From: a virus
Strand: one strand, 5' to 3'
IMG/VR virus record: IMGVR_UViG_3300031566_000358
Coordinates: 1 to 24,322 of that record
Length of the DNA: 24,322 bases
The notes under the pieces are model-generated. The model searched no databases, was not told where the DNA came from, and saw only the letters and a list, made by a program, of their open reading frames with translations. Each line of letters opens with the position of its first letter. The stretch's first letter is position 1. Positions 3,756 to 16,890 of the stretch are shown one piece after another. The position numbers were made by a program, and so were the translations under genes.

Positions 3756-4339
3756 ATTTTCTTATTTGTAGGTTTGAATGTTTTGCCGCCCATTCCCGCC
3801 GCTCCGAATCCTGTGAGTAATGTTGCCCCTGCGCCAATATAAGATGCCTGCTTTGCTGATTCTCCTCGTTGTTTTGCTAATTGGCCGGTCGCTCTGTCTA
3901 TTTCGGCCTGAGATTCGGCTCGTTGCGCTGCTGTTTCAGCCTCGTATCCTATTAAGAATCTTTCAAGCTCAAGCTCCGCTTCCTGCTCCTCTTCCAAAAG
4001 GCCACTACCATAAGCACCTTGCCCTGCTATCTTCGTTCCCAAGGTACTCTGTATTCGGGCAGACTCCTTTGCGTGTTGTATCTGGTCGAATTTAGCTTTT
4101 GCTCTTGTAGCTTTGGCCTCTTTCTCCATAACTGCGGCGTTGTAGCTGGCTATGTTCTGGGCTGACTTGGCCTCAGATTGAGCTACACGACCGCCCTGTA
4201 TCTGGCCGGCTGCCATTACACCAGTTCCTACCAACAATAATGTTACGGGGTCAGCCATTATCATTTCCGGTGCATACAAACAGCGATATACAAAATAAGC
4301 CAAACCGCTTAACTGTAAAAATATCCTGAATATCTTCAT
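3725..4339 (-). CDS. Internal virion / ejection protein (T7 gp14-like)
   Basis: The frame opens at ATG 4339 (ATGA overlap, AAGGAT upstream) with MKIFRIFLQLSGLAYF; an internal ATG at 4258 giving MADPVTLLLVGTGVMAAGQI, with GGAAA before it, is the form usually seen in this family and may be the true start. A hydrophobic segment is followed by a long Ala/Glu/Arg helix (SEAKSAQNIASYNAAVMEKEAKATRAKAKFDQIQHAKESARIQS), then GLLEEEQEAELELERFLIGYEAETAAQRAESQAEIDR and a second Gly/Ala-rich hydrophobic stretch (QASYIGAGATLLTGFGAAG). This matches the small ejectosome protein that enters the outer membrane in T7. It ends KMWKQFQGQIG. TAATG overlap with the next gene. Confidence 0.8.
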   Translation of the reverse strand: MKIFRIFLQLSGLAYFVYRCLYAPEMIMADPVTLLLVGTGVMAAGQIQGGRVAQSEAKSAQNIASYNAAVMEKEAKATRAKAKFDQIQHAKESARIQSTLGTKIAGQGAYGSGLLEEEQEAELELERFLIGYEAETAAQRAESQAEIDRATGQLAKQRGESAKQASYIGAGATLLTGFGAAGMGGKTFKPTNKKMWKQFQGQIG

Positions 4340-4767
4340 TCTGTTATCCTTGCGTATAACCAGACATCACATCCATCTGGACAATATTTTTTCATAAGAC
4401 CTTCAAGTTTGAATCCTATCGCTTCAACCATTTTACGTGCCTTCGGAAAGTCCACTCTTACGGTGCATTGCGCCCGTCTCAATTTGTGCTTTTCTATTAT
4501 GTCGTCAACCTTATCCTTTATGGCCTGAAATGCCATTATTCCAAAGACACCTTCCCTCTTGCAATCGGCGGTAAGCATTAGCCAGAACTCGCCTACGCCG
4601 TCCCAGAGAACAATCGCACCGCCGACACCAACTATCTTGTCCTCGAATATCGCTGTAAAAGCAGGGGGCGTGGGTATCATTTTAGGATAGTTCTTAACCG
4701 CACCCTCTAAGGGGTTCTCTCGAACATACTCAAGATCGCCGTCCTGTAAATCTCGTATTGTTATCAT
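4336..4767 (-). CDS. GNAT-family acetyltransferase-like protein (T7 gp13 position)
   Basis: I choose ATG 4767 (MITIRDLQDGD): it overlaps the upstream stop as ATGA and has AGGA just before it; a longer start at 4812 would lie inside the previous gene. The 143-residue product has the GNAT layout: PAFTAIFEDKIVGVGGAIVLWDGVGEFWLMLT (strands 2-4), FGIMAFQAIKDKVDDIIEKHKLRRAQCTV and FPKARKMVEAIGFKLEGLMKKYCPDGCDVWLYAR (the 'A...e.iGF..EG....y..dg.D..ly.r' end). The acetyl-CoA-binding 'R.G/A' loop is altered (CKREGVFG), so activity is uncertain. GNAT-like proteins often occupy this place just before internal-virion genes in podoviruses. The next gene overlaps as ATGA. Confidence 0.8.
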   Translation of the reverse strand: MITIRDLQDGDLEYVRENPLEGAVKNYPKMIPTPPAFTAIFEDKIVGVGGAIVLWDGVGEFWLMLTADCKREGVFGIMAFQAIKDKVDDIIEKHKLRRAQCTVRVDFPKARKMVEAIGFKLEGLMKKYCPDGCDVWLYARITE

Positions 4768-5306
4768 CTTCCTGTTTTGTCCACTCTTGGTATTATTGCC
4801 CTGATTACACAAGGCATAGGGCCGTTATCTGAAATCACAAAATCATCTTCAACTCCAAAACCGCCATCGGGGTCTGCTATTGCATCACCTGTGAAAAGAG
4901 TAGTGCCAAGTGAAGGATTAAAGTCGTGAAGATTGTCCGTGTCCTCTCCGTACTTAGCACCTAAAGTCTTATAGAAACTGACCACAACCTCGGCAAATCT
5001 TTTTATACTTCCTTTTGTCGTACCGCCTTGAGTAACTATATCAAATCTCATAGGTTTGTAGATATACCTGTATTTCAATCCGAATTGTGCCTGATTGACG
5101 AAGTTATGTGCGTGTGGGTCTTCGGATGTAATATTTATAATTCCGTCTGAATCTACGACCTCGTCATCAAAGACTGTCGAAACGCCGTCAACGTCTGTCC
5201 CTAATATCGTTACCGTCTCTCCTATTAGATGACTTAGAGTAAACTCATTCTCGACCTGTTGTGCCGTACCACCTGATTCGTAGGGCGTATAACCGGAACC
5301 CGCTAC
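4764..5306 (-). other. Relocated C-terminal domain of the nozzle protein
   Basis: Codons 381-560 of the preceding entry. In intact nozzle proteins the FCCH-like element is followed by 'GYT.Y.SGGT ... LSHLEGETV.ILADG ... LPYTS...PMRL ... K.I..V.VR.YKT'. Here the corresponding run is GYTPYESGGT, LSHLIGETVTILG, YRYIYKPMRFDIV and KRFAEVVVSFYKTLGA. Both the order and spacing agree. Confidence 0.78.
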
Positions 5307-6446
5307 CTCTGAAGGCGTAGGAGATGGAGTAGCCGATGGGCTGGCGCTCGGACTGATAGATGCGCTCGGACTCTTTGAGGCTGACGGAGATTTTGATGCC
5401 GAGGGACTTATCGACAACGAACCGGATAGACTGACAGACGATGACGCCGAAGATGAGGGGCTAATGCTGGCGCTCGGAGAAATTGATAGACTCGCCGATG
5501 CGGATGGTGATATAGACGGTGAAACCGATGGGCTAATAGATGGTGAAACGGAGGCCGACGGGCTAATTGAAGGACTACGGCTGGCACTTGGAGAAATGGA
5601 AGGTGATACCGAAGCCGACGGTGAAACAGACGGTGAAACAGACAGCGAAATTGAAGCTGACGGCGATATACTGGCTGATGGACTTAGCGAAGCCGTCAAA
5701 CTCGGTGAAGCCGATGGGCTAATCGAGGCCGATGGGCTGGCAGAAGCGCTCGGACTTATTGATGCTGACGGACTGATGGACGGAGATACGCTTGCACTCG
5801 GTGACTTAGAGGCACTTGGCGCACCTGCAATTACAATACCAATTGTTATAGCTACCCATTGTTCAGAAGCCGTTAATGCAAATGCCGCCGTTCCTGTCGC
5901 TCCTGCTGTTACTTGGTTTGTAGTTTGATAAGCAGCGCCGCCGGAAGGCCCAGAAGCATCTCCGCTATAATCTACCGTAATTACAGTTGTTCCAGAAGGT
6001 TCACCATCATCCACTGTTATATCATCATCATCCGCACCGAATATTCTTAGAATTAAAGCGCCATCTTTTGTGGTTGTAACCGAAGGACAGGTTGGTGTAG
6101 CAGAAGTCCCAGATGTTTGACCACTTATATTTATCGGCAAAGTGGGATGAGCGCCGGTAATTCTTAATATAAAACCATAAGCTCGTTTTTCTCCTGTCCA
6201 TGTAAAATTATAGGAAGCAGGTTCACTTGCACCTGCAATTTTATAAAAAACCCAAGCACTTATAGTTGAAAAACCAAATTGTATATATGTCCAACCAGTT
6301 GAAACAATATCAATTGGGGCACCTCCTACAACAACAAAGGCGACCATCAAATCATTTTCAACAACACCCGTTGGTTTGTTTATCGTTAAAGATTCAACGA
6401 TTGTTGCTGCTTTTGCTTCTGCGAAACTTGAATATGCTACTGCCAT
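4764..6446 (-). CDS. Ser-Pro repeat protein fused to a nozzle-type C-terminal domain
   Basis: A 560-residue protein starting at a TAATG overlap. Residues 1-208 are a beta-rich domain (LTINKPTGVVENDLMVAFVV, ISAWVFYKIAGASEPASYNF, GALILRIFGADDDD, QWVAITIGIVIAG) of a kind often found in phage tail or surface proteins. Residues 211-379 are Ser-Pro repeats like those in the upstream LamG protein. Residues 381-560 begin VAGSGYTPYESGGTAQQVEN and continue with LSHLIGETVTILGTDVDG, YRYIYKPMRFDIV and KRFAEVVVSFYKTLGA, the hallmark C-terminal domain of gp12-type nozzles. That domain is absent from the nozzle gene itself. The protein may therefore be built into the nozzle with its repeats exposed. Its stop overlaps the next start as ATGA. 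Confidence 0.8.
   Translation of the reverse strand: MAVAYSSFAEAKAATIVESLTINKPTGVVENDLMVAFVVVGGAPIDIVSTGWTYIQFGFSTISAWVFYKIAGASEPASYNFTWTGEKRAYGFILRITGAHPTLPINISGQTSGTSATPTCPSVTTTKDGALILRIFGADDDDITVDDGEPSGTTVITVDYSGDASGPSGGAAYQTTNQVTAGATGTAAFALTASEQWVAITIGIVIAGAPSASKSPSASVSPSISPSASISPSASASPSASISPSASPSLTASLSPSASISPSASISLSVSPSVSPSASVSPSISPSASRSPSISPSASVSPSISPSVSPSISPSASASLSISPSASISPSSSASSSVSLSGSLSISPSASKSPSASKSPSASISPSASPSATPSPTPSEVAGSGYTPYESGGTAQQVENEFTLSHLIGETVTILGTDVDGVSTVFDDEVVDSDGIINITSEDPHAHNFVNQAQFGLKYRYIYKPMRFDIVTQGGTTKGSIKRFAEVVVSFYKTLGAKYGEDTDNLHDFNPSLGTTLFTGDAIADPDGGFGVEDDFVISDNGPMPCVIRAIIPRVDKTGR
5310..5816 (-). repeat. Ser-Pro repeat tract 2 (about 169 residues)
   Basis: Residues 211-379 of the 560-residue protein, built from SPSA/SPSI/SASV units, with more irregular members (SPSL, SASR, SLSGS, SPTPS) than tract 1. 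Codons vary between units. It lies just upstream of the relocated nozzle-type domain. Confidence 0.9.
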
Positions 6447-6476
6447 TAGCCTATTTCCTCGCTAAATTGTTTCCAC
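6444..6476 (-). repeat. Imperfect 33-bp direct repeat, copy A
   Basis: On the plus strand it starts CATTAGCCTAT and ends AATTGTTTCCAC, with ten less similar bases between. The same two blocks at the same spacing occur at 3723-3755. Each copy encodes a WKQF...IG C-terminus, the TAA stop and the overlapping ATG of the next gene. Confidence 0.75.
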
Positions 6477-6685
6477 TTCTTGTCTTTTTCCTTTTGCTGG
6501 TAGTATTCCTGCAAAGACAATTCAGCGGCTATTTCCTTTGTCGTCATATCAGTTTTATAATGCTTCTTAATAATCGGAGCTAAAGCCAACCATTTCTGCT
6601 TGTTATCAACAGGTTTTGGTCTTGGCTTAACCGCCTGTTCAGTATGTCCGGCTATAAGAAAACCCATAATCAATATCCATTTCAT
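6446..6685 (-). CDS. Small protein with N-terminal hydrophobic segment (79 aa)
   Basis: ATG 6685 overlaps the nozzle stop as ATGA. The protein begins MKWILIMGFLIAGHTEQ, which fits a short signal peptide or membrane anchor, then Pro/Lys-rich VKPRPKPVDNKQ and a helical WLALAPIIKKHYKTDMTTKEIAAELSL. It ends KKWKQFSEEIG, very similar to the C-terminus of the ejection-type protein at 4339-3725 (KMWKQFQGQIG); the DNA around both stops is also alike. It lies in the segment that appears inserted into the nozzle gene. Function unknown; possibly a C-terminal remnant of an internal-virion gene joined to a new N-terminus, or a secreted host-directed protein. Confidence 0.62.
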   Translation of the reverse strand: MKWILIMGFLIAGHTEQAVKPRPKPVDNKQKWLALAPIIKKHYKTDMTTKEIAAELSLQEYYQQKEKDKKWKQFSEEIG

Positions 6686-9363
6686 GCGCTTGGACTGACC
6701 TCTCTGAACGTCAGTAACTCAAATGTATCCACCGTCAAAACATTTACGGTATAAACATTACCATTCACTTCCGTCATTCCGACCACTCCTGCTATGTAAA
6801 CTTGTTCTCCATCATTAAATCCGTGACCGACGGCAGTAACGACCGGAGGGTCGGCGGCTGTAATGTTTGTTATGGTCACGGCTGCGCCACCGTCCCATTG
6901 ACCACCACAATCCACAAACCACGCATCTTCTAAATCAACGTCAACCCTCGGCTGTAACTGCTCGACTGTCCTTGCAGTCGAACCGTTTATTGTTCTGGAA
7001 ACGGTCAGCCAGACCTCATCCTCGTCTGTGCCTGGAATCACAGATACAGACTCTACAACAACGTCAGTTCCGCCTATGATATGATTCGCCCACGCTATTA
7101 CATCCTGCTCCCTCTCGTATGACATTGAGATTAACTTGCCATCATCCAGAACAAACCAGACAATATCATCAGGGTTTTTTTGGTGTGCCATACAGGTAAT
7201 GCCCGTCAGTGTGATATGCTCTGCCAGCGCTGTAAGGTCGGGCGTTACAAACTTCTGCTTGTAATCACTAAAAGTCAATTCCCTTAGTTTTCTACCAGGG
7301 GAATCAACGAAAAGAATTGTATCGCCAACCTGTACCGGCTGTATCTTGGCCGAACCTCTGGCGGTCTGGGGTCTTGCATTGAAATTGGTGGGAGTTATCT
7401 CCTCATCATTCGCCGTTGCTCTTATCCGCCATTCACCGCCCCTCGTACCTACGATAAGAGCCTCAATAGACGACATCCATCTGATACCGTTTCTTTTGTC
7501 CGATGATAATGTACGCCAGAATGAATCACCGTCTTTAGTGCCTTCCTCAAAATCGTCAAAATCACGAGAACCACTAAACCATATAGTCTGTGGCCGATAA
7601 GTAGTACCACCGTAAACCGCCCTCTCCTCAAAGAATGTGAAGGCTGCCGGATAACCCCTGTATGCCGACCATGCGCCTTCGTTCCATCTCTTTGTAGCTT
7701 CAGTAGAAGCAAAGTCGGTTATAATCTCTGCCGTGACTTGCGTGGAACTCGTATAACCAATAACTCGACATATCCCGCTCTGCGTACTTTCATTTACGGT
7801 AATTTCAGCGTGACAAGTTCCACTTGTCCACGTGGTCACGTTCAACCTGTATTGAACATTATCCGATTCCTCGGTGTAAGTATCGTTAAGATGTAAATCA
7901 TTTGCCGTTACAAATGTCCTGTAAGTTTCCCAACCTTCGCTACTCTCGTTTCGTTGAAGTTCTATAGTGCCCGTCCATTCGCCGTGAACATTCCAGGAAA
8001 ATGAACCCTTAACATCTATGGGAGCGCTCATAACTCCGGTAGCTACTGCATCATCGCCCGTCTTAAAGACTAATCTTGGTTGGGTCAGTTGAAACAAAGC
8101 GCCCGGCGAAGTGGCATGAGAAGGGTCGAATACCGCCGAAGATGAAACGAGGGTTATTTCTTTATAAGTCAAGTCTACATTTGTTGTTCCCCAAGCCTCA
8201 AGTTCATATAGAATACAATCGGCGTAAGCATCAGAATTTACCCAAGTGGTCTTGGTATATAGATATATCTTTACAGCCGTAACATCTGTCCAGGGGCCGA
8301 TTATATTTGATTTATTGTTAGTGGACGTACCTACCGAAGTCCATGCTCCACCCTGCTGAACAGAAACAGCTACAGTACGGGTAGAAGAACCATTGTTATA
8401 CCATCCTATCCAATATTTAATCTCATCAAGTCTCGTTACCGTCTCAATAAAAGTGAATGTCATTGTGAAATACGACCATGCGCTATAGCTATTTAATCTT
8501 TCCAAGGCGTTATTGTGACCACGCCTTTTGCGGTAAGTCAAAACATTGCCATCGTTAGTAGCGGCGACCGTACCGGAAGCCGTACCGGATGCAAGAGACT
8601 CTGCAGCCACACCAGTGTTATCAGAGGAAGCATAATCCAAAAAGGATTTCCACGTATCGCTCGGAGTAATTGTTACATCATCATCTTTTGCAAGATCGTT
8701 TCTTTTCAGGAAAGGGCCGTTAGTAAAATTGATGACCGACAAATCGAAAGTATAAGCCGTTGTCCTCGTTAGTTTTCGAGGGGGATATTCGTTATGAGTA
8801 ATCCAGACGACATCCGCAGACTGATGAAATTGTAATTCAAATAAATCCGATTCCTGATACGGAGTAGGAGTTTCACAGATAGGATAATCGTCAGAATCAA
8901 GGTCGGCGACTACCCAATCAGTGAAATTGCTCGCAGGGTCATCGTGGTCGCCGTCATCGTCTGAAGTATGTGCTACTAAACATCTATAAACTACAGCGGT
9001 ATGAGTAACGAACTGACCCATTATATAAGCGGTAGCATCAGCCCACGCCGTAGGTGTAGTAGTCGAACCTACTAATTGAGCACCATCGTAATAGAACCTG
9101 ATATATTCAGGCCCGACTTCCATCTCGTAGGCAATTGTATCCGAAAACTGAAAGTCAACCATTCTCGATACTTGAGACGAATCCTTTGTTGATGCTATAT
9201 ACTTTGTGCCCGGCCGTCGCTCCGAACAACCATAAATGCGGGGTATCATATTCCGCAACGTCCGGCAACTGGAAGAAAATTTCTTTAAGTCAGACCTTGC
9301 ATCTATGAGGGGACTCACTTCTCCGGTATTTGATGATAACACAGGTATATTAGTTGTTGCCAT
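6682..9363 (-). CDS. Nozzle / tail tubular protein B (T7 gp12-like), lacking its C-terminal domain
   Basis: An 893-residue protein of the podovirus nozzle family. The N-terminus is diagnostic: NTGEVSPLIDARSDLKKFSS, then CRTLRNMIPRIYGCSERRPGTKYIA and ELQFHQSADVVWITHNEYPPRKL. A CBM5/12-like insert lies at about residues 101-150 (WADATAYIMGQFVTHTAVVYRCLVAHTS). The middle contains RTLSSDKRNGIRWMSSIEALIVGTRGGEWRI and GRKLRELTF, also typical. Residues about 829-885 form an FCCH-like element (VVTAVGHGFNDGEQVYI). Full-length relatives then continue with a 'GYT.Y.SGG' domain; here the protein instead ends FREVSPSA at TGA. The missing domain is found in the gene at 6446-4764. ATGA overlap with the next gene. 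Confidence 0.88.
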   Translation of the reverse strand: MATTNIPVLSSNTGEVSPLIDARSDLKKFSSSCRTLRNMIPRIYGCSERRPGTKYIASTKDSSQVSRMVDFQFSDTIAYEMEVGPEYIRFYYDGAQLVGSTTTPTAWADATAYIMGQFVTHTAVVYRCLVAHTSDDDGDHDDPASNFTDWVVADLDSDDYPICETPTPYQESDLFELQFHQSADVVWITHNEYPPRKLTRTTAYTFDLSVINFTNGPFLKRNDLAKDDDVTITPSDTWKSFLDYASSDNTGVAAESLASGTASGTVAATNDGNVLTYRKRRGHNNALERLNSYSAWSYFTMTFTFIETVTRLDEIKYWIGWYNNGSSTRTVAVSVQQGGAWTSVGTSTNNKSNIIGPWTDVTAVKIYLYTKTTWVNSDAYADCILYELEAWGTTNVDLTYKEITLVSSSAVFDPSHATSPGALFQLTQPRLVFKTGDDAVATGVMSAPIDVKGSFSWNVHGEWTGTIELQRNESSEGWETYRTFVTANDLHLNDTYTEESDNVQYRLNVTTWTSGTCHAEITVNESTQSGICRVIGYTSSTQVTAEIITDFASTEATKRWNEGAWSAYRGYPAAFTFFEERAVYGGTTYRPQTIWFSGSRDFDDFEEGTKDGDSFWRTLSSDKRNGIRWMSSIEALIVGTRGGEWRIRATANDEEITPTNFNARPQTARGSAKIQPVQVGDTILFVDSPGRKLRELTFSDYKQKFVTPDLTALAEHITLTGITCMAHQKNPDDIVWFVLDDGKLISMSYEREQDVIAWANHIIGGTDVVVESVSVIPGTDEDEVWLTVSRTINGSTARTVEQLQPRVDVDLEDAWFVDCGGQWDGGAAVTITNITAADPPVVTAVGHGFNDGEQVYIAGVVGMTEVNGNVYTVNVLTVDTFELLTFREVSPSA

Positions 9364-10910
9364 TAAAAGACACTCCTTGTACTACTGGTAAGATTCCTCA
9401 CTTCTGTCACTATTCCACCCACTACTTTTATGTGAGTAATCGGGCCTTCGTAATTGATACCACCGAAGAAATATGACGGACTTGCGGATGCAGATGGGGA
9501 TATAGATGGTGACGCCGAAGAAGAAGGACTTATCGAAGGCGAAACTGAAGCAGACGGTGAAATTGAAGGCGAAACTGAAGCAGACGGACTAATAGAAGGA
9601 CTGGCGCTCGGACTCACGGATGCCGACGGGCTAATCGAACCTGTCAAACTCGGCGAAGCCGATGGGCTGATGGATGGTGAAATTGAAGCTGAAGGCGAAA
9701 TCGAAGCAGAAGGGCTAATGCTCGGACTGACTGATGGCGAAACCGATGCAGAAGGACTAACCGATGCCGAGGGACTAATGCTTGGACTCACAGACGCAGA
9801 CGGTGAAATTGATGCTGACGGACTAATTGACGGACTCACCGAGGCAGATGGACTAATACTTGGTGAAGCCGATGCTGACGGGCTTATGCTCGGTGATACT
9901 GACGCAGACGGCGAGATAGACGCTGATGGGCTTATGGATGGACTGACGGAAGCCGAAGGAGAAATTGAAGCGGACGGACTGATACTTGGACTAACAGAAG
10001 CTGAAGGACTAATCGAGGCCGAAGGACTAATCGACGGTGAGACAGATGCCGAAGGACTAATGCTCGGAGAAACAGACGCCGATGGACTAACTGATGCACT
10101 CGGAGATATACTCGGACTAACGGAATCGCTCGGTGATATTGACGCAGACGGGCTAACCGATGCCCCTGTTGACACATAACCACCGAGAAGAGCAATCTCG
10201 GCAGGGTCTTTGAACATACAAAATGGCTCTCGGTAGAGTTGGGATATTTCAGAAGCAGATAAGGCACGTAAATATTCTGAAAAAATAACTGAGTCACATG
10301 CACAAGTAGAGCCAAGTGTTCTTGGCCCCATTGTATTTGTAGGTGCAGCGACTTGAGCTATTGATACAAGTTCAACACCATTTGCATATAACCGAATTGT
10401 AGCCTTGTCCCATGAAACAACAAAACAAGCTATGCTATTTCCAAAAGGCCAACCGTCCGTATAAACCTTTTTGGTTGATACTACTGTACCACCAAATTCA
10501 ATTCTTATATTAAACCAATATAAAGTCCCGTCTCGATGTTCCAAAGAGAGCATTATTGTGTTATCATCGTCTCGATAACCATATATTATAGTGTCTTCAC
10601 TCCATAATGCTGCTGGTTCTGTAATTTTCGCCCAATAAACCCATGTAAAACCATTACTGTAATCGTGATATGGGGTATTAATTAAAATATGATTATCACC
10701 ATTATCATCTGTAGTTATCTGAGACCCCATTGAGCCAGTTGACCAAGCAGCAGTACCCATCAATGTTGCAGTAGTACCATTCCCGCTCAAATCAAAGACT
10801 TGACCGCCTGAGCCTTCAAGCATAGGCCAGAAGCCAGCATCAGGCACAAGACCACTATCGTAGTCTAATGGCCATCCCATAGGTGGTTTTTGTTGATATG
10901 GCCAACCCAT
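9363..10910 (-). CDS. LamG-like domain protein with Ser-Pro repeat stalk (fibre-like)
   Basis: A 515-residue protein in three parts. Residues 1-20 carry a repeated MGWPxxxxPP/MGWPLDYDSG element. Residues about 25-235 are a concanavalin/LamG-type jelly roll: GFWPMLEGSGGQVFDLSGNGTTATLMG is a typical opening, with FTWVYWAKI, ATIRLYANGVELVS and the diagnostic end YLRALSASEISQLYREPFCMF. Such domains often bind sugars. Residues 251-479 are a serine-proline repeat (SPSA, SPSI and SASV combinations). The last 36 residues (from YFFGGINYEGPITHIKVVGG) are a short folded end. It probably acts as a virion fibre or host-binding protein with an extended, possibly glycosylated, stalk. TAATG overlaps on both sides couple it to its neighbours. 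Confidence 0.8.
   Translation of the reverse strand: MGWPYQQKPPMGWPLDYDSGLVPDAGFWPMLEGSGGQVFDLSGNGTTATLMGTAAWSTGSMGSQITTDDNGDNHILINTPYHDYSNGFTWVYWAKITEPAALWSEDTIIYGYRDDDNTIMLSLEHRDGTLYWFNIRIEFGGTVVSTKKVYTDGWPFGNSIACFVVSWDKATIRLYANGVELVSIAQVAAPTNTMGPRTLGSTCACDSVIFSEYLRALSASEISQLYREPFCMFKDPAEIALLGGYVSTGASVSPSASISPSDSVSPSISPSASVSPSASVSPSISPSASVSPSISPSASISPSASVSPSISPSASISPSASVSPSISPSASISPSASVSPSISPSASASPSISPSASVSPSISPSASISPSASVSPSISPSASVSPSASVSPSVSPSISPSASISPSASISPSISPSASPSLTGSISPSASVSPSASPSISPSASVSPSISPSASVSPSISPSSSASPSISPSASASPSYFFGGINYEGPITHIKVVGGIVTEVRNLTSSTRSVF
9474..10160 (-). repeat. Ser-Pro repeat tract 1 (about 229 residues)
   Basis: The tract is built from SPSA, SPSI and S-V/I connectors, giving runs such as SPSASVSPSISPSAS. 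The same amino acids are written with many different codons (for example AGC, TCA, TCC, TCG for Ser and CCA, CCG, CCT for Pro), so the DNA repeat is imperfect although the protein repeat is strict. Confidence 0.9.
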
Positions 10911-11554
10911 TAGGCATCAGCTCCACATTCAACGACAAAAGCTATTTCGCTATTATTTATCGTAACTGTATCCTCAAGGAAAACAAACTTACCAAGATGA
11001 GTAAGTTTGCCGGTTGTTGGGTCTGTTACAGAAAGTGTAGTTTGCGCTGCCGCTTCCTGTGCTGCAAAGTCGGATTTAACAGCTACGGCAGCATATGCCA
11101 GTACGTTAACTTTTGTTATTGTTACCCATTCGTCAACAGAATCTTCTTTCCTGCCCTGAACAATAACTTCAATGCCGGTTGTGTTTGCAGTTACCGAAGA
11201 TTGACATACATCAACAGCAATAATTGAGTCCCATGAAGCACTTGTATCAAAAGCCGAACTCTCGGCAACGGCTGGCGGTGTTAATGCCAACCAAGCATCC
11301 TCTTGATTAGCTGTTTTCGTAGGTGTCGTAATTGATGTTGTCCTCAATAACTTAGTTCGATAATGAACTCTACCACCATCAGGGTCGTAAGCTCCGTTAT
11401 AGATTACCCTTGCTGCCTTATATACAAGTGGTATGTGAAACTGGTTGCTATATACAGACGAGTTCGTTGCATGGTCTTGGGTATAAATGTCAGAAGTTGT
11501 TTCCTTCTGGTGCATAATCCCATCTAAAATTAAAATTGTATCTACCGCTGCCAT
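10910..11554 (-). CDS. Unassigned virion-associated protein (214 aa)
   Basis: ATG 11554 forms a TAATG overlap with the glycosyltransferase gene and has AAGGAGA about eight bases upstream. The N-terminal part begins MAAVDTILILDGIMHQKETT and includes NQFHIPLVYKAARVIYNGAYDPDGGRVHYR; then a Thr/Ala-rich stretch. The second half is strand-rich (WDSIIAVDVCQSSVTANTTGIEVIVQGRKED and TVTINNSEIAFVVECGADA), with an Ala-rich segment between (VAVKSDFAAQEAAAQ). I see no catalytic motif. It lies between the modification enzymes and the fibre-like protein, and its beta-rich make-up fits a tail or decoration protein. It could also be a fibre-assembly partner. Its stop overlaps the next start as TAATG. Confidence 0.7.
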   Translation of the reverse strand: MAAVDTILILDGIMHQKETTSDIYTQDHATNSSVYSNQFHIPLVYKAARVIYNGAYDPDGGRVHYRTKLLRTTSITTPTKTANQEDAWLALTPPAVAESSAFDTSASWDSIIAVDVCQSSVTANTTGIEVIVQGRKEDSVDEWVTITKVNVLAYAAVAVKSDFAAQEAAAQTTLSVTDPTTGKLTHLGKFVFLEDTVTINNSEIAFVVECGADA

Positions 11555-13161
11555 TATTTAATCTCCTTCAAGAATTCATTGAATCTGTCTTTTGTTTTAC
11601 CCCATCCGGGTATCTCGTCCGCCATTAGCCAGCCCTGACAAGACTTCGGACTTCTGAACTGGTCTTGCCTGAACCTGTTGGCGGTCAGGTTATATGCGTG
11701 TCGAATATCTATATTCGGGAATTGAGACTCCCAAGAAACCGCTTTGTAGTTATCAATGCCCCTCGGAAAAGCGTGTGTGCCAGGTTCGTATCCTATCTTG
11801 TAGTCGTGACCATTGTTGCCGACCCTCTCAATTCTTTTGCGATAATGTTCTACGAGTAACTCTCGATAGGCACATAAACCTGAAGTCTGCTGGGTATAGT
11901 AATAAAGTGCCTGTCCGTCACTCTCCCGCAACTTCCAAGTGTTAGTATTGTAATAATAGACATCTTTCAAATCCGGCGTGAAATCGAAATGGGTAGGATG
12001 GTATAACATATCGTGTTCGACCAGAAAGGCAATGTCCGTATCCAGAGCCTCCAGACCGGCAAGAATCTGCTTGAACATTGTTACACGACCTCTAATGTCC
12101 GGCAGTACGATGTTCGTACCGAAATCAATGGGATACAACGAAACGGATACGATAGGGAATCCCATATTATTAAGGAGCTTGCGATTGACTTGAACTATCT
12201 GCTCGGAAGCCCTGTTATCGGTATAGTACACCAAACCTTTAGATAAATCCTGACGTGCCTGCCACGTAGGAACGGGAGCAAACTTATCTATGAGCCATTG
12301 AAACTTTCGCTTCTGCAAAGGCCACTTGTTATTTTTCCAGAGGTCACGCGAATACTGACGTGCCTTCTCCTGTTCTGAACCGTGTATCTTATAAGGAAAG
12401 CCAAACGGCCCCGTAGTACGGAACATATGGGCGAACCAAGTTTTTTTATTGACTACATGCCTGCCGCCAGACAACCAAGCCTTACAAGCGATTTCAGCGC
12501 CGACTTGTCCCCAACTGCCGTGCTTTTCATCGAGGCCGCCTAACTCTAAGAACCTCTTTCTATGTTGAAACCAGCACGCCCCCTGACCATTCATAACGTC
12601 AACTATGTCACCTTTAGCCTCCGGCCTCTCTCCATAACTGCCCCAATACTGAACCCTCAAGTCTTTATCGAGGCACATAAAATCTGTTTTTCTGCTCTTG
12701 CGAATCTTCCAGATATATTTCATCTTTAGAGGAAACTGGCAGTTCGGGCATTTGTTCTCTTTTTTGAGTCCGAATTTGTCCTGATAGAAGTTATGCCCGT
12801 TCTCGCAGACCCAATCAAAGACGTGAAGATTATACATTCGGGGAAGAACAGTCCAGTCGTACTCACAGTCGGCCATTAACTTAACGTCAAAACCTTCATC
12901 GAGCATTGAATGAGCATCCGTTTTGAGAATGTATTTAGCCCGGCTTAGATTTGCAGCTTCGTTGACGGCAGCCCTTTGGCCTATTGGTGTGGTATGGTGG
13001 ATTATGGTTACGCGGGGGTCATCTTTTATCTGTGGTTCAGGCCAGTAATCCTGAATGACAGCGATAATCTCCGTGTCCGCCTTAATTGCAGACAGAATCT
13101 TCTCGATAGTTCCGGCAAGGAACATCTCATTACGTGCTGGTATTATTACTGATACATCCAT
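11554..13161 (-). CDS. Two-domain glycosyltransferase: GT2 plus second GT-A-like domain
   Basis: Residues 1-300 are a GT2 domain paralogous to the first cassette gene: MDVSVIIPARNEMFLAG, IKDDPRVTIIHHT, LKTDAHSMLDEGFDVKL (DxH metal site, Asp82), GGRHVVNKKTWFAH and WLIDKFAPVPTW. It has an insert at about 119-141 with Cys119, His123, Cys138 and Cys141, spaced like a zinc site, that the paralogue lacks. Residues 307-535 are a separate domain starting GLVYYTDNRASEQIVQVNRKL, with IAFLVEHDMLYHPTHFDFTP as a possible acidic metal site and ending GWLMADEIPGWGKTKDRF. It resembles a second transferase domain but I cannot name its family. A 31-base gap with a weak ribosome-binding site separates it from the upstream gene; its stop overlaps the next start as TAATG. 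Confidence 0.82.
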   Translation of the reverse strand: MDVSVIIPARNEMFLAGTIEKILSAIKADTEIIAVIQDYWPEPQIKDDPRVTIIHHTTPIGQRAAVNEAANLSRAKYILKTDAHSMLDEGFDVKLMADCEYDWTVLPRMYNLHVFDWVCENGHNFYQDKFGLKKENKCPNCQFPLKMKYIWKIRKSRKTDFMCLDKDLRVQYWGSYGERPEAKGDIVDVMNGQGACWFQHRKRFLELGGLDEKHGSWGQVGAEIACKAWLSGGRHVVNKKTWFAHMFRTTGPFGFPYKIHGSEQEKARQYSRDLWKNNKWPLQKRKFQWLIDKFAPVPTWQARQDLSKGLVYYTDNRASEQIVQVNRKLLNNMGFPIVSVSLYPIDFGTNIVLPDIRGRVTMFKQILAGLEALDTDIAFLVEHDMLYHPTHFDFTPDLKDVYYYNTNTWKLRESDGQALYYYTQQTSGLCAYRELLVEHYRKRIERVGNNGHDYKIGYEPGTHAFPRGIDNYKAVSWESQFPNIDIRHAYNLTANRFRQDQFRSPKSCQGWLMADEIPGWGKTKDRFNEFLKEIK

Positions 13162-13192
13162 TTATCATTTTCATTTTTTCCCTTTCAAGGAA

Positions 13193-13867
13193 TCAAGTTT
13201 TGCCCCAGCCATCGGGGTTTGCCACTAACAATTTATTCTCTCTGTTCTCGATAAAATATTTCATCATAAGATTGTGCATTTTCTGTTTTGGTATTTTTAG
13301 TCGGTATCCTGATTCTTTTTTTACATCAGGAGTATAGACCGCAGGAATCAATGAACGTGAGTATATCTTATGTTTTGTCCCCCTGCGGCGAAGCCTTTCC
13401 ACTAACTCCTTATCTTCAGGGCCGTAGAACTCGAATCTTTCATCGAATCCACCAGCGTCAATAAATTCCTCTTTTTGAATAATCAAAAGTGAATCCCAAG
13501 GGCCGGGTATCATCCAGACCGCTCTTGCATCTATCAAAACCCTTATCACATGAAAGAAGTATCCAGACGGCAGGTTATCCGCATTGGCCAAAACAAGATA
13601 TTCTCCACTTGCGGCCAATGCTGAGAGGTTTCTTGCTTTCGCCATGTGGTAGTATTTATGTCCCGTATGCTTTACATATACTATGTTGTTACCGTCTTTG
13701 AGTTGCGGCAGGGTCTTGGCATATTCCTCCAAACCGTCATCTGAATCATAGTCCAATATAACAATCTCCACCGGCGGACTCCTCTTCGCCGCCGCAATTA
13801 CCGCTACCAGCGATTGCTTCAAGTCGTCTATCCTGTTCCTAATTGGTATGCAATAACTTATTACCAT
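13193..13867 (-). CDS. GT-A glycosyltransferase with galactosyltransferase-type C-terminal region
   Basis: A 224-residue protein with MVISYCIPIRNRIDDLKQSL and VEIVILDYDSDDGLEEYA at the N-terminus (GT-A strands 1 and 2). It continues with ASGEYLVLANADNLPSGYF at the DxD position (ANADN) and GGFDERFEFYGPEDKELVERLRRRG in the C-terminal half. The last segment matches the conserved region of family 7/27 galactosyltransferase C-terminal domains ('GGFde.f.gyg.ED.dl..Rl...G'). The protein ends NPDGWGKT, similar to the ends of two other cassette enzymes. The start at 13867 overlaps the methyltransferase by seven bases; AGGA is close upstream. The acceptor is unknown; galactose or N-acetylgalactosamine transfer is suggested only by the family. 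Confidence 0.84.
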   Translation of the reverse strand: MVISYCIPIRNRIDDLKQSLVAVIAAAKRSPPVEIVILDYDSDDGLEEYAKTLPQLKDGNNIVYVKHTGHKYYHMAKARNLSALAASGEYLVLANADNLPSGYFFHVIRVLIDARAVWMIPGPWDSLLIIQKEEFIDAGGFDERFEFYGPEDKELVERLRRRGTKHKIYSRSLIPAVYTPDVKKESGYRLKIPKQKMHNLMMKYFIENRENKLLVANPDGWGKT

Positions 13868-14355
13868 AGTCCTATCTTATTAACGTCCACAAAATTACTT
13901 AATACCTTCGTTCTGGGTCTGGTTAAGAATTGATAACTATATTTATAGAGTGGATATGTTTCTTTATAATGATAATATCTTTCGTCTCTACCACAGGTAT
14001 CGTGTATTATTACAAACTTTGCATAATCGGCCACTCTGCGAGCTTCTATGTTGCGCCTATTCCATTCATGGTCTATAAAGACAACGTCCCAAGGCTTTTC
14101 AATATCTATCTTGTCCCAGTCCTCTACGTAATTAACAATATGAAATTCACACACATATTGCGTGGCTATCTTGTAATAATTTATGTTACTGTCATAAGAT
14201 ACAAGTCTTCTCTTATCTGGAACGCACAACCAATGCAAAACCGGCGTACTGAACAATCCTGTACCACATTCCAGAACATCACCTGTAGTCTCAATTATCA
14301 TCCTTATCAACAATGGTAAATGTGAGCTAAAACGAATATGTTGTTCTGGTCTCAC
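13861..14355 (-). CDS. Class I SAM-dependent methyltransferase of a sugar-modification cassette
   Basis: The start is GTG 14355 (GTGA overlap with the upstream stop) with AAGGAGGT just before it. The 164-residue protein follows a pattern I associate with methyltransferases found beside glycosyltransferase genes. It starts with RFSSHLPLL, then GDVLECGTGLFSTPVLHW (SAM-binding motif I, E-C-G-T-G), RRLVSYDSN (acidic end of strand 2), and PWDVVFIDHEWNRRN. The later AKFVIIHDTCGRDERYYHY and TKVLSNFVDV complete it. This would be a compact Rossmann-fold enzyme, perhaps methylating a transferred sugar. The substrate is unknown and a catalytic base is not obvious. The next gene begins seven bases before its stop. 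Confidence 0.78.
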   Translation of the reverse strand: MRPEQHIRFSSHLPLLIRMIIETTGDVLECGTGLFSTPVLHWLCVPDKRRLVSYDSNINYYKIATQYVCEFHIVNYVEDWDKIDIEKPWDVVFIDHEWNRRNIEARRVADYAKFVIIHDTCGRDERYYHYKETYPLYKYSYQFLTRPRTKVLSNFVDVNKIGLW

Positions 14356-15236
14356 GTTACCTCCTTGATAATTTCCATAATGGTATCAACAGCCTTGACG
14401 TGGTTGTGATGTTCCAGAACTATGTTCCTGTTCGTAATACCATCTTCGGGTTTGTATTGAGATATTAAACCCGTAAAGACTTTGGTTTTGCATTCAAGAC
14501 TATAAGCCCTGCCTGAAAGATTATTCATTCGACTTCTTCGATAAGTATCTTTATTGATATAACCATCGCCACGTCTGCGGTCGAAGACTATCACAGGACG
14601 GCAACAGGCCATTGCCTCAAGTACCCCTCTGCCAAGAGATATGACTATATCCACTTCGTTTATATAGTCCTCTACGTTATATTTGGGATGTGAGGTGTAA
14701 CCAAGGTGGCGGAACTCGATACCTATTATTTTACACGCTTTTTGAATAGTTTCGTATGTCCGCCACCTTTTGAAGTTACTTAAAAATAATAACCGTTTAG
14801 GTTTTTCGCTGACAGGCTTTGTGCAATGAAATCTATCGGTGTCAATGAAGTTTCGTACTATTTGTACGTTTGTAATATCGTAAGAGGCTAAATTCAATAA
14901 GACTTCTTCACTGACTGCGATGTACTTATCAATATGAATATCCACCGGCGGCTGTTCCAATTCAGGTAGTATTCCGTGCGAAGTGAATATCATCGGTGTA
15001 TCAAGCCACTTGTTTCTCATCTCTCTCGCTAACGTGCTGTGTTGTGCGAGAATAACGTCCGGCCTTTCAGCCAATAACAACGATGATATGGTATTCATAC
15101 GTGCCGCCAGTGCGCCACCTTCGGGACTATAAACAACAACCTTATGACCTCTTGATACGAGCTGGTTATAAAGCGTTAGCGTATAGGTAGGAACGCCTGT
15201 ATAATTCAAAAGAGCTGTACTTATCAAGATGTCCAT
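14352..15236 (-). CDS. GT-B fold glycosyltransferase (GT4/GT1-like)
   Basis: I choose ATG 15236 (MDILIST) over the ATG five codons earlier because GGGA is then well spaced; it overlaps the preceding gene by 13 bases. The 294-residue product begins like GT-B enzymes: a first strand, then 'GVPTYTLTLYNQLVSRGHKVVVYSPEGG'. Next come DVILAQHST and the linker IDKYIAVSEEVLLNL. The C-terminal donor domain has KRLLFLSNFKRWRTYETIQKA and DIVISLGRGVLEAMACCRPVIVFD, matching the family's 'G.G...LEAMA.G.PVI' nucleotide-sugar site, with Cys at the usual Gly. It is somewhat short for GT4, whose members usually exceed 350 residues. Sugar and acceptor cannot be read from sequence. Confidence 0.83.
   Translation of the reverse strand: MDILISTALLNYTGVPTYTLTLYNQLVSRGHKVVVYSPEGGALAARMNTISSLLLAERPDVILAQHSTLAREMRNKWLDTPMIFTSHGILPELEQPPVDIHIDKYIAVSEEVLLNLASYDITNVQIVRNFIDTDRFHCTKPVSEKPKRLLFLSNFKRWRTYETIQKACKIIGIEFRHLGYTSHPKYNVEDYINEVDIVISLGRGVLEAMACCRPVIVFDRRRGDGYINKDTYRRSRMNNLSGRAYSLECKTKVFTGLISQYKPEDGITNRNIVLEHHNHVKAVDTIMEIIKEVT
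14359..14366 (-). promoter_or_regulatory. Full-consensus Shine-Dalgarno before a GTG start
   Basis: AAGGAGGT lies three bases before GTG 14355, within the end of the preceding gene. It is the strongest ribosome-binding sequence in the cassette and fixes the non-ATG start of the methyltransferase gene. Confidence 0.75.
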
Positions 15237-16090
15237 TCGTATTTTTCCCATCCTGGTACTGGCGCAAAATGGTCAATGAGCCATTTGAAGTCTCTTATTT
15301 GGCCAGGCCACCTATTGTTCATCCAGTAATCGACAATTCGTTCAGAACCTTGTTGTATTTCCTTTCGGGCCAAGTAATAGCCACGTCCGTACTGCTTGCC
15401 TTTGTGTAAATGTGCATACCAAGTCTTTTTATTGCGAATGACCCTCCCGCCAGATAACCATACCTTATTACCTAATTCCTGCGCTTCGCGTGTGAATGTG
15501 CCGCCAATCGTATCGTCCATACACCCTATCTTGAAGTAATAGTCTCTGTGCATAAACCAGCAGGAACCCTGAAAGGTCATCAGGTCGTCTATTAAAACGT
15601 CTTTGCGATTCCTTTCTTCTTCGTACCCTCGCCAGATTACTCCGCTATACCCAGGCTCCCAATACCTTCCGTCTTCGGGCTTTTTCTTTATGGGCGGGAT
15701 AATGTATAGATAATTTACTGTCTTACTATCGTCGGGCTTTCTCTTCCATTTCTCAGCGTCCAGACTATACCTTGTAGGCACGGCCAGCCAGTCAGGTTCG
15801 CAATCCGCAGCAAGTTTAATATCAAAGCCCTTATCGAACGAACAGTGTCCGTCACACTTCATTATGTATTTGCCTTTAGCTATTCGGGCGGCCTCGTTTA
15901 TGGCTTCACGCATACCGTGTCTTGTGTGATGTATCAGAACAACGTGCGGGTCGTCCTTAATAGGTACTTTAGGCCAGTCACCATCAAGAACAGCTATAAT
16001 CTCAATATCACCTTCGGCAGACTCTATCAGACCGTCTATGGTCGGCTGTAAGAACTGTTCATTGCACGAAGGTATAATTACCGATAGCAT
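15224..16090 (-). CDS. Family 2 glycosyltransferase (GT-A fold)
   Basis: A 288-residue GT2-type enzyme that should transfer a sugar from a nucleotide donor. The N-terminus MLSVIIPSCNEQFLQPTIDG and EIIAVLDGDWP are the first two strands of the GT-A fold, and KYIMKCDGHCSFDKGFD holds the metal-binding DxD-like site (CDGH, Asp near residue 79). The acceptor half includes GSCWFMHRDYYFKIGCMDD and the conserved-looking GGRVIRNKKTWYAH. It ends FKWLIDHFAPVPGWEKYEWTS. The N-terminal domain of the 535-residue gene at 13161-11554 is clearly a paralogue, sharing IKDDP, the 'D.H...D.GFD.KL.ADCE.DW' run and NKKTW. TAATG overlap with the adaptor gene; GGGAG six bases upstream. First gene of the modification cassette; the acceptor is unknown. 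Confidence 0.88.
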   Translation of the reverse strand: MLSVIIPSCNEQFLQPTIDGLIESAEGDIEIIAVLDGDWPKVPIKDDPHVVLIHHTRHGMREAINEAARIAKGKYIMKCDGHCSFDKGFDIKLAADCEPDWLAVPTRYSLDAEKWKRKPDDSKTVNYLYIIPPIKKKPEDGRYWEPGYSGVIWRGYEEERNRKDVLIDDLMTFQGSCWFMHRDYYFKIGCMDDTIGGTFTREAQELGNKVWLSGGRVIRNKKTWYAHLHKGKQYGRGYYLARKEIQQGSERIVDYWMNNRWPGQIRDFKWLIDHFAPVPGWEKYEWTS

Positions 16091-16890
16091 TAAGAACTCC
16101 CTAACTTGGTCGGGTCTCTCGATGTTCTAAATGCGGCAAGCCATGTATTGTAATCGAAAAGACCCTTAGTGTTCTGCTCCTGCCTGTCCATTGCCCTGAC
16201 CTTTGACATTAAGCCTGGTTTCCTTGCAGTACCATAAAGTTCATCTTTGAGAAGGACGTACATTTCCTTGTCCTGCGTAATTGGCATACATAACTTAACG
16301 GCAAGTGATAGGACAAGGACTTCGATGAAAAGCGGGTCGAATGATGCAACGGTCTCTACTTTTTTGGTATAGACATAATCTACCGAAGTCTCTCTGGTGT
16401 AATACTTAGTCCCTTCGATTATAAAGGAATACACGGAACGGTGAGCATCATTGTCATCGTAAGTGTACCTGCTCGCCAAAAAGTCGGCCGGCAAAGACCA
16501 CATAAAGTCCCACTCATTAACAGGAGTATAATCAACCGCTGTGAGCGTAGTCCAATAAGTAGCTTCAACAACGCCGGTTCCAGGCTCATCGTCCAAGTCG
16601 CCGGAAGTATGAGCAAGCAGACATTTATACCAGACAGAATCATTCGATACGTACTGGTCGGTTGTGTAAGCCGTAGCCGTCACCCAAGACGAAGCAAGCC
16701 TTATCCTTGCCCCTGCGAACCGCCACCAGTAAGACCTTAACAGAGCATCTCTGGTCTGTTCGTAATGAAGGTTACACTTAACGGCTGTAGGGTCGGTATC
16801 GGCTGTAATCAGAGCGACCGTTACTGTCTTATGGCCTATTCTGCCCAAGGCCATATTACACAAATCCGTCTTCGTTGTAGGCGAAGCCAT
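16090..16890 (-). CDS. Adaptor / tail tubular protein A (T7 gp11-like) with inserted sugar-binding-like module
   Basis: The N-terminal 55 residues (TKTDLCNMALGRIGHKTV ... CNLHYEQTRDALLRSYWWRFA) are the hallmark of the gp11-type adaptor: 'CN.AL..iG', then 'C...Y...RD..L....W.FA'. The C-terminal half continues the family (WDFMWSLPADFLASRYTY; DPLFIEVLVLSLAVKLCMPIT). The adaptor joins portal to nozzle. Between these halves, at about residues 68-115, is an extra element (WVTATAYTTDQYVSNDSVWYKCLLAHTS ... YWTTL) with the spacing of a CBM5/12 chitin-binding-type module: Trp, 'Y..g.yV....v.Y.C..aHtS', then 'YW'. The nozzle gene has the same element. The stop overlaps the next start as TAATG. Confidence 0.87.
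   Translation of the reverse strand: MASPTTKTDLCNMALGRIGHKTVTVALITADTDPTAVKCNLHYEQTRDALLRSYWWRFAGARIRLASSWVTATAYTTDQYVSNDSVWYKCLLAHTSGDLDDEPGTGVVEATYWTTLTAVDYTPVNEWDFMWSLPADFLASRYTYDDNDAHRSVYSFIIEGTKYYTRETSVDYVYTKKVETVASFDPLFIEVLVLSLAVKLCMPITQDKEMYVLLKDELYGTARKPGLMSKVRAMDRQEQNTKGLFDYNTWLAAFRTSRDPTKLGSS

Follow-up and report, generated by a model that had tools for sequence, protein, structure and literature searches.

The nozzle of short-tailed phages forms the DNA exit tube of the tail and is one large chain per subunit in the solved structures considered here, namely, those of T7, SU10 and Cobetia phage Carin1. The T7 gp12 nozzle consists of a platform, a seven-bladed propeller and a tip, and the fibre dock sits in the link between the propeller and the platform (PMC6702177). 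In the SU10 nozzle gp17, additional domains are inserted into the propeller and the nozzle is decorated with short fibres, which are separate trimers (PMC9509320). The Carin1 nozzle (PDB 8ck1_A) is a single chain of 830 residues. The Manatee Spring podovirus ct8d5349 (MW202898, locus L017) encodes an undivided nozzle of 850 aa without a stalk, which has an FCCH element between the body and the C-terminal domain. In contrast, in cultured Xanthomonas phages of the CP2 type (10KY502B, SAC, CP2 and Olaya were examined), the nozzle is made of two adjacent genes. The cut is located in the middle of the body (position 309 of the body model), and no stalk protein is present. CP2 and four relatives have been placed in a proposed genus "Usmevirus" (PMC8143317), with no mention of a split in the text consulted. 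No split podophage nozzle was described in the titles and beginnings of abstracts surveyed, a search that was necessarily incomplete (papers consulted further: PMC6702177, PMC9509320, PMC12309495, PMC8143317 and PMC7241545).

In the window analyzed here (the whole stretch of 24,322 nucleotides of viral record IMGVR_UViG_3300031566_000358), the nozzle is encoded as two separate proteins, the second of which carries a long Ser-Pro array and an extra head domain. The following features were identified, from the nozzle body towards its downstream neighbour:

6682..9363, minus strand: nozzle body (893 aa), comprising N-terminal platform strands, a beta-propeller with inserted domains, and an FCCH element that is cut short
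9184..9363, minus strand: first ~60 residues of the body, the stretch that in T7 gp12 gives three strands to the platform barrel (PMC6702177), and the position where the N-split relatives are cut
6694..6879, minus strand: FCCH element (residues 829-890), truncated before its last strand
6685..6696, minus strand: four residues SPSA ending the body, a probable remnant of a Ser-Pro array
6446..6685, minus strand: small basic ORF (79 aa), overlapping the body frame by 4 bases
4764..6446, minus strand: second nozzle polypeptide (560 aa), comprising the beta head, Ser-Pro array, last FCCH strand and C-terminal platform domain
5832..6446, minus strand: N-terminal beta head (~205 aa)
5310..5810, minus strand: Ser-Pro array (167 residues, 83 Ser and 29 Pro)
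5253..5306, minus strand: last FCCH strand (VAGSGYTPYESGGTAQQV)
4767..5246, minus strand: C-terminal platform domain of the nozzle (residues 401-560)
4336..4767, minus strand: acetyltransferase-like gene (143 aa from the ATG at 4767), overlapping the 560-aa frame by 4 bases and marking the ancestral downstream end of the nozzle gene

The 893-aa protein ends with TFELLTFREVSPSA, and the 560-aa protein resumes with EVAGSGYTPYESGGTAQQV followed by the C-terminal domain. According to the profile search, PHROG 376 (gp12-type nozzle, tail tubular protein B) matches the 893-aa protein at profile positions 168-592 (E 2.5e-148) and the 560-aa protein at positions 559-710 of 712 (E 2.5e-12, residues 400-558). 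Thus, the two proteins match complementary parts of the profile that overlap at 559-592. TBLASTN analysis found the same 152-167 residues in Pelagibacter-phage nozzles (best E 3e-11), and the one of those best hits that was examined, Skadi-4, is an undivided gene of 743 aa. No second complete nozzle was found in the window record or in the longer records of its relatives (seven records searched), although the window is only 24 kb and none of the records is known to be complete, so this point is not final. Upstream of the nozzle, a tail protein of PHROG 394 occupies the tail tubular A position, with seven genes intervening. Downstream are the acetyltransferase-like gene (PHROG 4177, E 2.8e-22; acetyltransferase PHROG 1249, E 0.0029; no Pfam hit at 0.001) and PHROG 418.

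Notably, the join between the two pieces is located inside the FCCH element, whereas the preliminary description placed the end of the body just after it. The Pfam E1_FCCH family matches the body with 31.2 bits against a cut-off of 29.5. An FCCH model built for this analysis covers only positions 1-58 of its 80 positions in the window, and it matches the bodies of the window and its four split relatives only up to position 58-63. The missing tail scores 17.1 bits in front of the C-terminal domain of the window. When seven decoys that were by accident the true site are set aside, the next decoy scores 6.0 bits. However, the FCCH tail is not significant by itself in one of these relatives, L106 (5.1 bits), and no value was reported for another, L107.

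The predicted model of the 893-aa protein matches the solved nozzle 8ck1_A at Z 38.1 over 496 residues and T7 gp12 at Z 23.7. The predicted model of the C-terminal platform domain superposes on 8ck1_A 622-830 (Z 5.9), 9efk_M 663-818 (Z 6.0) and T7 gp12 674-792 (Z 4.6). This structural match alone is weak (rmsd above 5 A), and the assignment of the platform domain rests on the sequence match. The beta head is predicted to be mostly strand (pLDDT 54-95 by block of ten) and shows a weak likeness to Ig-type adhesin domains (best Z 6.5), which gives no function. It also matches PHROG 3329 of unknown function (E 2.9e-6), and a search of solved structures with the head profile gave nothing credible. 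The pLDDT of the Ser-Pro array is mostly 29-40. The small ORF shows no family above a curated cut-off (PriCT_2 scored 18.7 bits under its cut-off of 22) and none in PHROGs.

The same split was found in a contig differing from the window at 3 of 17,363 bases and in four further contigs (L106, L107, L108 and L110), the bodies of which are 57-62% identical to that of the window. L106 starts inside its body at the contig end. In all four, ORFs of 66-100 aa are present at the place of the small gene, and the same neighbours, acetyltransferase and internal virion protein, were recognized by eye. L106 and L107 have 26 Ser-Pro-type residues at the place of SPSA in the window, L110 has nine and L108 has none. 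Overlapping frames, by 1-17 bases, occur at both joints in the window and these four contigs. In a phylogenetic tree constructed from body and C-terminal columns, the five formed one clade with high support (99.3/100, SH-aLRT/bootstrap). A first tree gave this set 98/94 (bootstrap/SH-aLRT), although it misplaced locus L005 because the insert of L005 lay in the slice used, and in a smaller tree with fewer columns the clade was not resolved (22% of bootstrap trees). The only relative found among genome contigs was a Demequina MAG whose nozzle ORF runs into a transporter-like stretch; this contig is probably chimeric and was not used as a host clue.

Comparison of L106 and L107 showed dN/dS of 0.080 for the body and 0.078 for the C-terminal domain, indicating purifying selection in the one pair with unsaturated dS; most dS values are saturated. 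In this pair, the amino acid identity was 92% for the body, 94% for the C-terminal domain, 64% for the head and 35% for the small ORF, with a matching dip in DNA identity, as expected for a host-contact module. In other pairs, the head is as conserved as the body or more so (window/L107 61% and 62%; window/L110 62% and 57%), and fast change of the head therefore rests mainly on one pair.

The preliminary description proposed that a module of a small gene, a beta domain and a Ser-Pro stalk had been inserted into the nozzle gene, leaving the nozzle as two polypeptides, and this interpretation is supported. The undivided L017 has an FCCH in the same slot and the same downstream neighbours, acetyltransferase and then internal virion protein B, while another undivided relative, L020, keeps this gene order with no FCCH in the slot. 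The slot itself is a habitual insertion site. Of 99 ORFs carrying both body and C-terminal domain, 33 have 78-166 residues between them, 21 of these with an FCCH; two of the 66 short junctions (L029 and L045) came out negative and are uncertain. The preliminary description nevertheless requires three corrections. First, the split is old and shared by five lineages rather than peculiar to this phage. Second, it is one of several nozzle splits at different positions, including the one in cultured Xanthomonas phages. Third, the stalk had been placed at the tail tip, but by T7 precedent (PMC6702177) the separated domain is the adaptor-facing platform, and the stalk is expected at the level of the fibre dock.

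Taken together, the data indicate with reasonable confidence a two-polypeptide podophage nozzle. At the sequence level, the display module sits in the loop before the last strand of an FCCH element, which itself occupies the link between the beta-propeller and the C-terminal platform domain. The two pieces probably rejoin non-covalently, the platform barrel taking its first strands from the 893-aa protein and the rest from the 560-aa protein, and the FCCH getting its last strand back. Each nozzle subunit would then carry, at the level where other podophages attach fibres, a flexible stalk with a head that most likely contacts the host. Both co-assembly and receptor binding are inferred, in the absence of virion data and of a model of the complex, since only single chains were folded. 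In receptor-binding proteins, the N-terminal tail anchor is usual (PMC12692247), whereas here the nozzle domain is C-terminal and the head N-terminal.

Of the alternative explanations, the one that survives best, although it appears unlikely, is that the head and stalk do not bind a receptor but act as a spacer, a shield or a sugar-coated decoy, the Ser-rich array possibly being glycosylated by the phage's own glycosyltransferases. Indeed, four glycosyltransferase-family genes lie between the adaptor-like gene and the nozzle, and a second Ser-Pro protein (LamG-type) lies next to the nozzle. However, there is no direct evidence of glycosylation, and in L106/L107 the head diverges strongly while the anchor does not, although the identity of the stalk was not measured separately as protein. 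No support was obtained for recent recombination between the Ser-Pro arrays of the 515- and 560-aa genes, as the longest shared exact DNA is 17 bases against a mean of 16.1 (maximum 23) in 100 synonymous shuffles.

It is also doubtful that the 560-aa protein is a free tail or baseplate-like protein that borrowed a nozzle platform domain, with the truncated 893-aa nozzle working without one. In locus L170, a 596-aa protein carries an extra copy of the platform domain beside a plain 209-aa copy, showing that the domain can ride on another protein. At the same time, L170 itself keeps a plain copy, and in the records of the five C-split genomes one platform match was found each, on the second piece. 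In addition, 149 of 176 nozzle groups keep body and platform on one ORF, and the FCCH element is cut so that the two pieces complement each other.

A single nozzle chain produced by frameshift, stop read-through or intron splicing is very unlikely. The frames overlap closely at both joints, but the overlaps of body and small gene differ between the five genomes (4, 4, 4, 17 and 1 bases), which does not look like one conserved recoding site, albeit without a systematic search for slippery sites. No Rfam family matched at E up to 1 in positions 4300-9400, Pfam at E up to 0.1 gave no intein or homing-endonuclease family for the 79- and 560-aa proteins, and read-through would still leave the head and array between the halves. 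Finally, decay of the gene, an assembly error or a defective genome can be rejected, given the near-identical contig, the four diverged contigs with conserved frames, the dN/dS of 0.08 in the one pair with unsaturated dS, and the different nozzle split of cultured Xanthomonas phages.

A survey of 176 nozzle groups showed that 19 are multi-ORF, cut at five positions: after ~60 residues, at two mid-body positions, before the last blade, and before the platform. The surveyed loci came from searches seeded with this family, several of them limited to 80 loci, so 19 of 176 is not a frequency estimate, and four of the 19 are CP2-type phages of one kind. L059 (unknown bases at its break) and L117 (chimeric) were not counted as splits, L114 is the other end of the L106 contig, and duplicate loci were merged. 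The body and C-terminal models were built from 12 sequences that include the window, and the hits of the window itself are therefore by construction; L106, L107, L108, L110, L119, L120, L127, L133, L136, L139, L140 and L170 were not among these sequences.

In the N-split relatives L025, L026, L119, L120, L133 and L139, body-model positions up to about 60 are a separate ORF, with extra genes in the gap in most. In L025, L026, L119, L120 and L133, an extra domain precedes the rest of the body. L026 is a short fragment whose body has a further interruption. No Ser-Pro array was seen in these phages (by a scan of L025 and L026, and by eye in the others). L025, L119 and L120 lie in one 9-row clade with the window and form a supported group (99.6/98). 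L026, L133, L139, L127, L136, L140 and L170 were not included in this tree, so that the independence of their splits was not tested there. Profile comparison of the heads of C-split and N-split phages was inconclusive as to common origin (probability 16% over 44 columns). A GLUG domain was confirmed by Pfam for L127 only; L005 and L139 had no Pfam hit at 0.01, and for them and for L136 and L140 the likeness was seen by eye.

Interestingly, display modules may ride on many of the fragments, and some genomes encode two versions of the same segment, one plain or lightly decorated and one decorated. L170 has two C-terminal pieces of 209 and 596 aa (the last-blade start of the latter was read by eye), L025 has two N-terminal pieces of 61 and 356 aa, the latter with LamG, and L139 has two N-terminal pieces of 137 and 436 aa. 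As a tentative hypothesis, the nozzle in this phage group may be a segmented scaffold, and one hexamer could be built as a mosaic that shows different adhesins on different subunits.

Annotation can miss such pieces: of ten CP2-type records, nine list the match only as "hypothetical protein", and four of the ten were examined and shown to have two nozzle ORFs. The splits found in this phage and its relatives suggest that the DNA exit tube doubles as a scaffold for displaying host-contact modules. A nozzle that assembles from separately translated pieces shows where the DNA gate of short-tailed phages can be cut and decorated, and how these phages may display host-contact domains at the fibre position.

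All genes in question lie on the minus strand and are arranged as follows:
9363-10910 (-), a 515-aa protein with a LamG-type domain, directly upstream of the nozzle
6682-9363 (-), the 893-aa nozzle body
6446-6685 (-), a small basic ORF of 79 aa
4764-6446 (-), a 560-aa protein carrying the C-terminal nozzle domain

The last of these is followed by an acetyltransferase-like gene and an internal virion protein gene. According to a profile search, PHROG 376 (the gp12-type nozzle, or tail tubular protein B, family) matches the 893-aa protein over profile positions 168-592 (E 2.5e-148) and the 560-aa protein over positions 559-710 of 712 (E 2.5e-12); positions 1-299 of the profile also fall in the 893-aa gene. 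The preliminary description, in which the C-terminal domain of the nozzle was placed at the end of the 560-aa protein, is therefore correct.

The nozzle body ends inside an E1_FCCH-type element (Pfam 31.2 bits, cut-off 29.5). According to a model built from six intact copies, the FCCH of the window stops at position 58 of 80, and those of all five split bodies stop at positions 58-63. The missing last strand stands directly in front of the C-terminal domain of the second protein, with scores of 17.1 bits in the window and of 20.5 and 13.7 bits in the related contigs L108 and L110, respectively, whereas in the related contig L106 it is not significant alone (5.1 bits). Of 2,000 decoys, the seven best were inspected and are by accident the true site; the next decoy has 6.0 bits. 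In addition, short CBM_5_12-type stretches were detected in the nozzle body (residues 106-137, above the cut-off) and in the adaptor-like protein encoded at 16090-16890 (residues 69-105, below the cut-off).

A search with the head of the 560-aa protein found three more contigs with the same gene order (L106, L107, and L108), and a search with the body added a fourth (L110). Identity to the window is 57-62% for the body, 47-62% for the head, and 44-57% for the C-terminal domain. In each of these contigs, a body (762 aa in L107, 732 aa in L108, and 894 aa in L110; in L106 it is cut by the contig end) is followed by a basic ORF of 66-100 aa and a second piece of 552-586 aa, with the frames overlapping by 1-17 bases. 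The small ORF occupies the same place in all five split genomes, has a net charge of +5 to +14, and diverges quickly; three of the five begin, by eye, with a hydrophobic stretch. A near-identical contig (L004) differs from the window by 3 bases in 17,363. Notably, the body ends with 26 residues of Ser-Pro repeat in L106 and L107, with SSSVSASPS in L110, and with SPSA in the window, while L108 has none. This suggests that a Ser-Pro array flanked the break on both sides, consistent with a cassette bounded by such arrays. No second complete nozzle was found in the seven records searched, which include three of 45-47 kb with a C-terminal split but are not known to be complete.

A domain inserted in the body (residues about 238-398) is present in the window, in L106, and, by eye, in L110 but is absent from L107 and L108, although L106 and L107 are 92% identical where they align, indicating another presence/absence module. 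The 515-aa protein encoded directly upstream of the nozzle has a LamG-type domain (Pfam 30.7 bits), a long Ser-Pro array, and a short C-terminal tail. A similar LamG protein of 503 aa occupies the same place in L110, a 433-aa one with an array in L108, and a 328-aa Ser/Thr array protein in L005, a relative with an uninterrupted nozzle. In addition, four glycosyltransferase-family genes (three GT2-type and one GT4-type) and one gene without a Pfam hit lie between the adaptor-like gene and the nozzle (11554-16090, minus strand), with a possible link to modification of Ser-rich stalks.

As for undivided relatives, the nozzle of Manatee Spring podovirus ct8d5349 is one 850-aa gene with an FCCH in the same slot, followed by an acetyltransferase and internal virion protein B. 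Two Pelagibacter phages keep the order tail tubular A, nozzle, acetyltransferase, internal virion protein B. Of 99 ORFs carrying both body and C-terminal domain, 66 have at most 11 residues between them (two of these, from loci L029 and L045, gave negative values and are uncertain) and 33 have 78-166 residues, 21 of the latter with an FCCH. The slot is thus a habitual insertion site.

A phylogenetic tree was constructed with 646 body and C-terminal columns. In this tree, the five nozzles split before the C-terminal domain form one group (SH-aLRT/bootstrap 99.3/100), three nozzles split near the N-terminus form another (99.6/98), and both fall with L005 in one nine-member group (100/100). An earlier, larger tree gave 98/94 (bootstrap/SH-aLRT) for the C-split set, while a shorter alignment did not resolve it. 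The nozzle of L005 is one uninterrupted 1342-aa protein with an insert of about 570 residues near the end of the propeller.

Across 176 distinct nozzle-bearing groups, 149 have one ORF, 20 have several, 6 are cut by a contig end, and 1 looks chimeric. In a Demequina MAG contig (L117, 739-3561), a nozzle ORF runs inside its FCCH into a transporter-like stretch (by eye), and this looks like a chimeric contig. With one locus containing unknown bases (L059) left out, 19 multi-ORF nozzles remain, although these loci were gathered by searches seeded with the family and the numbers are not frequencies. The 19 nozzles are cut at five places: before the platform (window/L004, L106, L107, L108, and L110); after ~60 residues (loci L025, L026, L119, L120, L139, and L133, the last of which is cut twice); at model position 309 in four CP2-type Xanthomonas phages of one kind (10KY502B, SAC, CP2, and Olaya); at about position 348 (loci L127, L136, L140, and again L133); and before the last blade (locus L170). 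In L127, L136, and L140, the second piece starts with an extra domain of roughly 430 residues, identified as GLUG by Pfam in L127. The nozzle of L133 (703-3790) is apparently encoded in three pieces of 61, 569, and 397 aa. Notably, three genomes carry two versions of one segment. In L170 (2737-7447), the nozzle cut before the last propeller blade is followed by two alternative C-terminal pieces, one plain (209 aa) and one with a large insert (596 aa). L025 (6007-10434) has N-terminal pieces of 61 aa and of 356 aa, the latter with LamG, and L139 (3223-7477) has N-terminal pieces of 137 and 436 aa, one of which carries a large repeat-rich extra domain.

The AlphaFold2 model of the body (mean pLDDT 77.8) matches the Carin1 nozzle 8ck1_A at Z 38.1 over 496 residues (2.6 A), LME-1 9efk_M at Z 31.8, and T7 gp12 at Z 23.7. 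In the model of the 560-aa protein (mean pLDDT 63.5), the array is unstructured (pLDDT mostly under 40), while residues 385-559 match 8ck1_A 622-830 (Z 5.9), residues 400-556 match 9efk_M 663-818 (Z 6.0), and residues 458-560 match T7 gp12 674-792 (Z 4.6). These Z values are low by themselves, but they agree with the sequence matches. The best match of the head is an antigen I/II adhesin domain at Z 6.5, which is too weak to name a function. In T7, the fibre dock joins the propeller to the platform on the outer surface, and the C-terminal platform barrel takes three strands from the 45-residue N-terminus (PMC6702177). By that precedent, the break lies at the fibre-dock link, and the cut after ~60 residues in the N-split relatives lies at the other platform/propeller link.

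The separate frames and the conserved gene order are accompanied by purifying selection in the one pair with unsaturated dS, L106/L107 (dN/dS 0.080 for the body and 0.078 for the C-terminal domain). In that pair, the head differs far more than the anchor (64% identity against 92-94%), and the identity of the small ORF is 35%. Accordingly, DNA identity of the pair falls from 85-95% at the end of the body to 58-75% over the small ORF and head and returns to 90-93% in the C-terminal domain. It is inferred that the pieces are translated by restart at overlapping codons and assemble by strand complementation in the platform and FCCH, and that the head is displayed on a flexible stalk at fibre level, where it contacts the host.

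The main reading of the preliminary description, that a module was inserted into the nozzle gene and left the nozzle as two polypeptides, is supported at the sequence level, protein evidence that both pieces sit in the virion being absent. No description of a split podophage nozzle was found in literature searches, which covered few subscription papers and were not exhaustive. The split is older and more general than was first supposed, and the stalk, which the preliminary description had tethered to the tail tip, is expected at the side of the tail instead.
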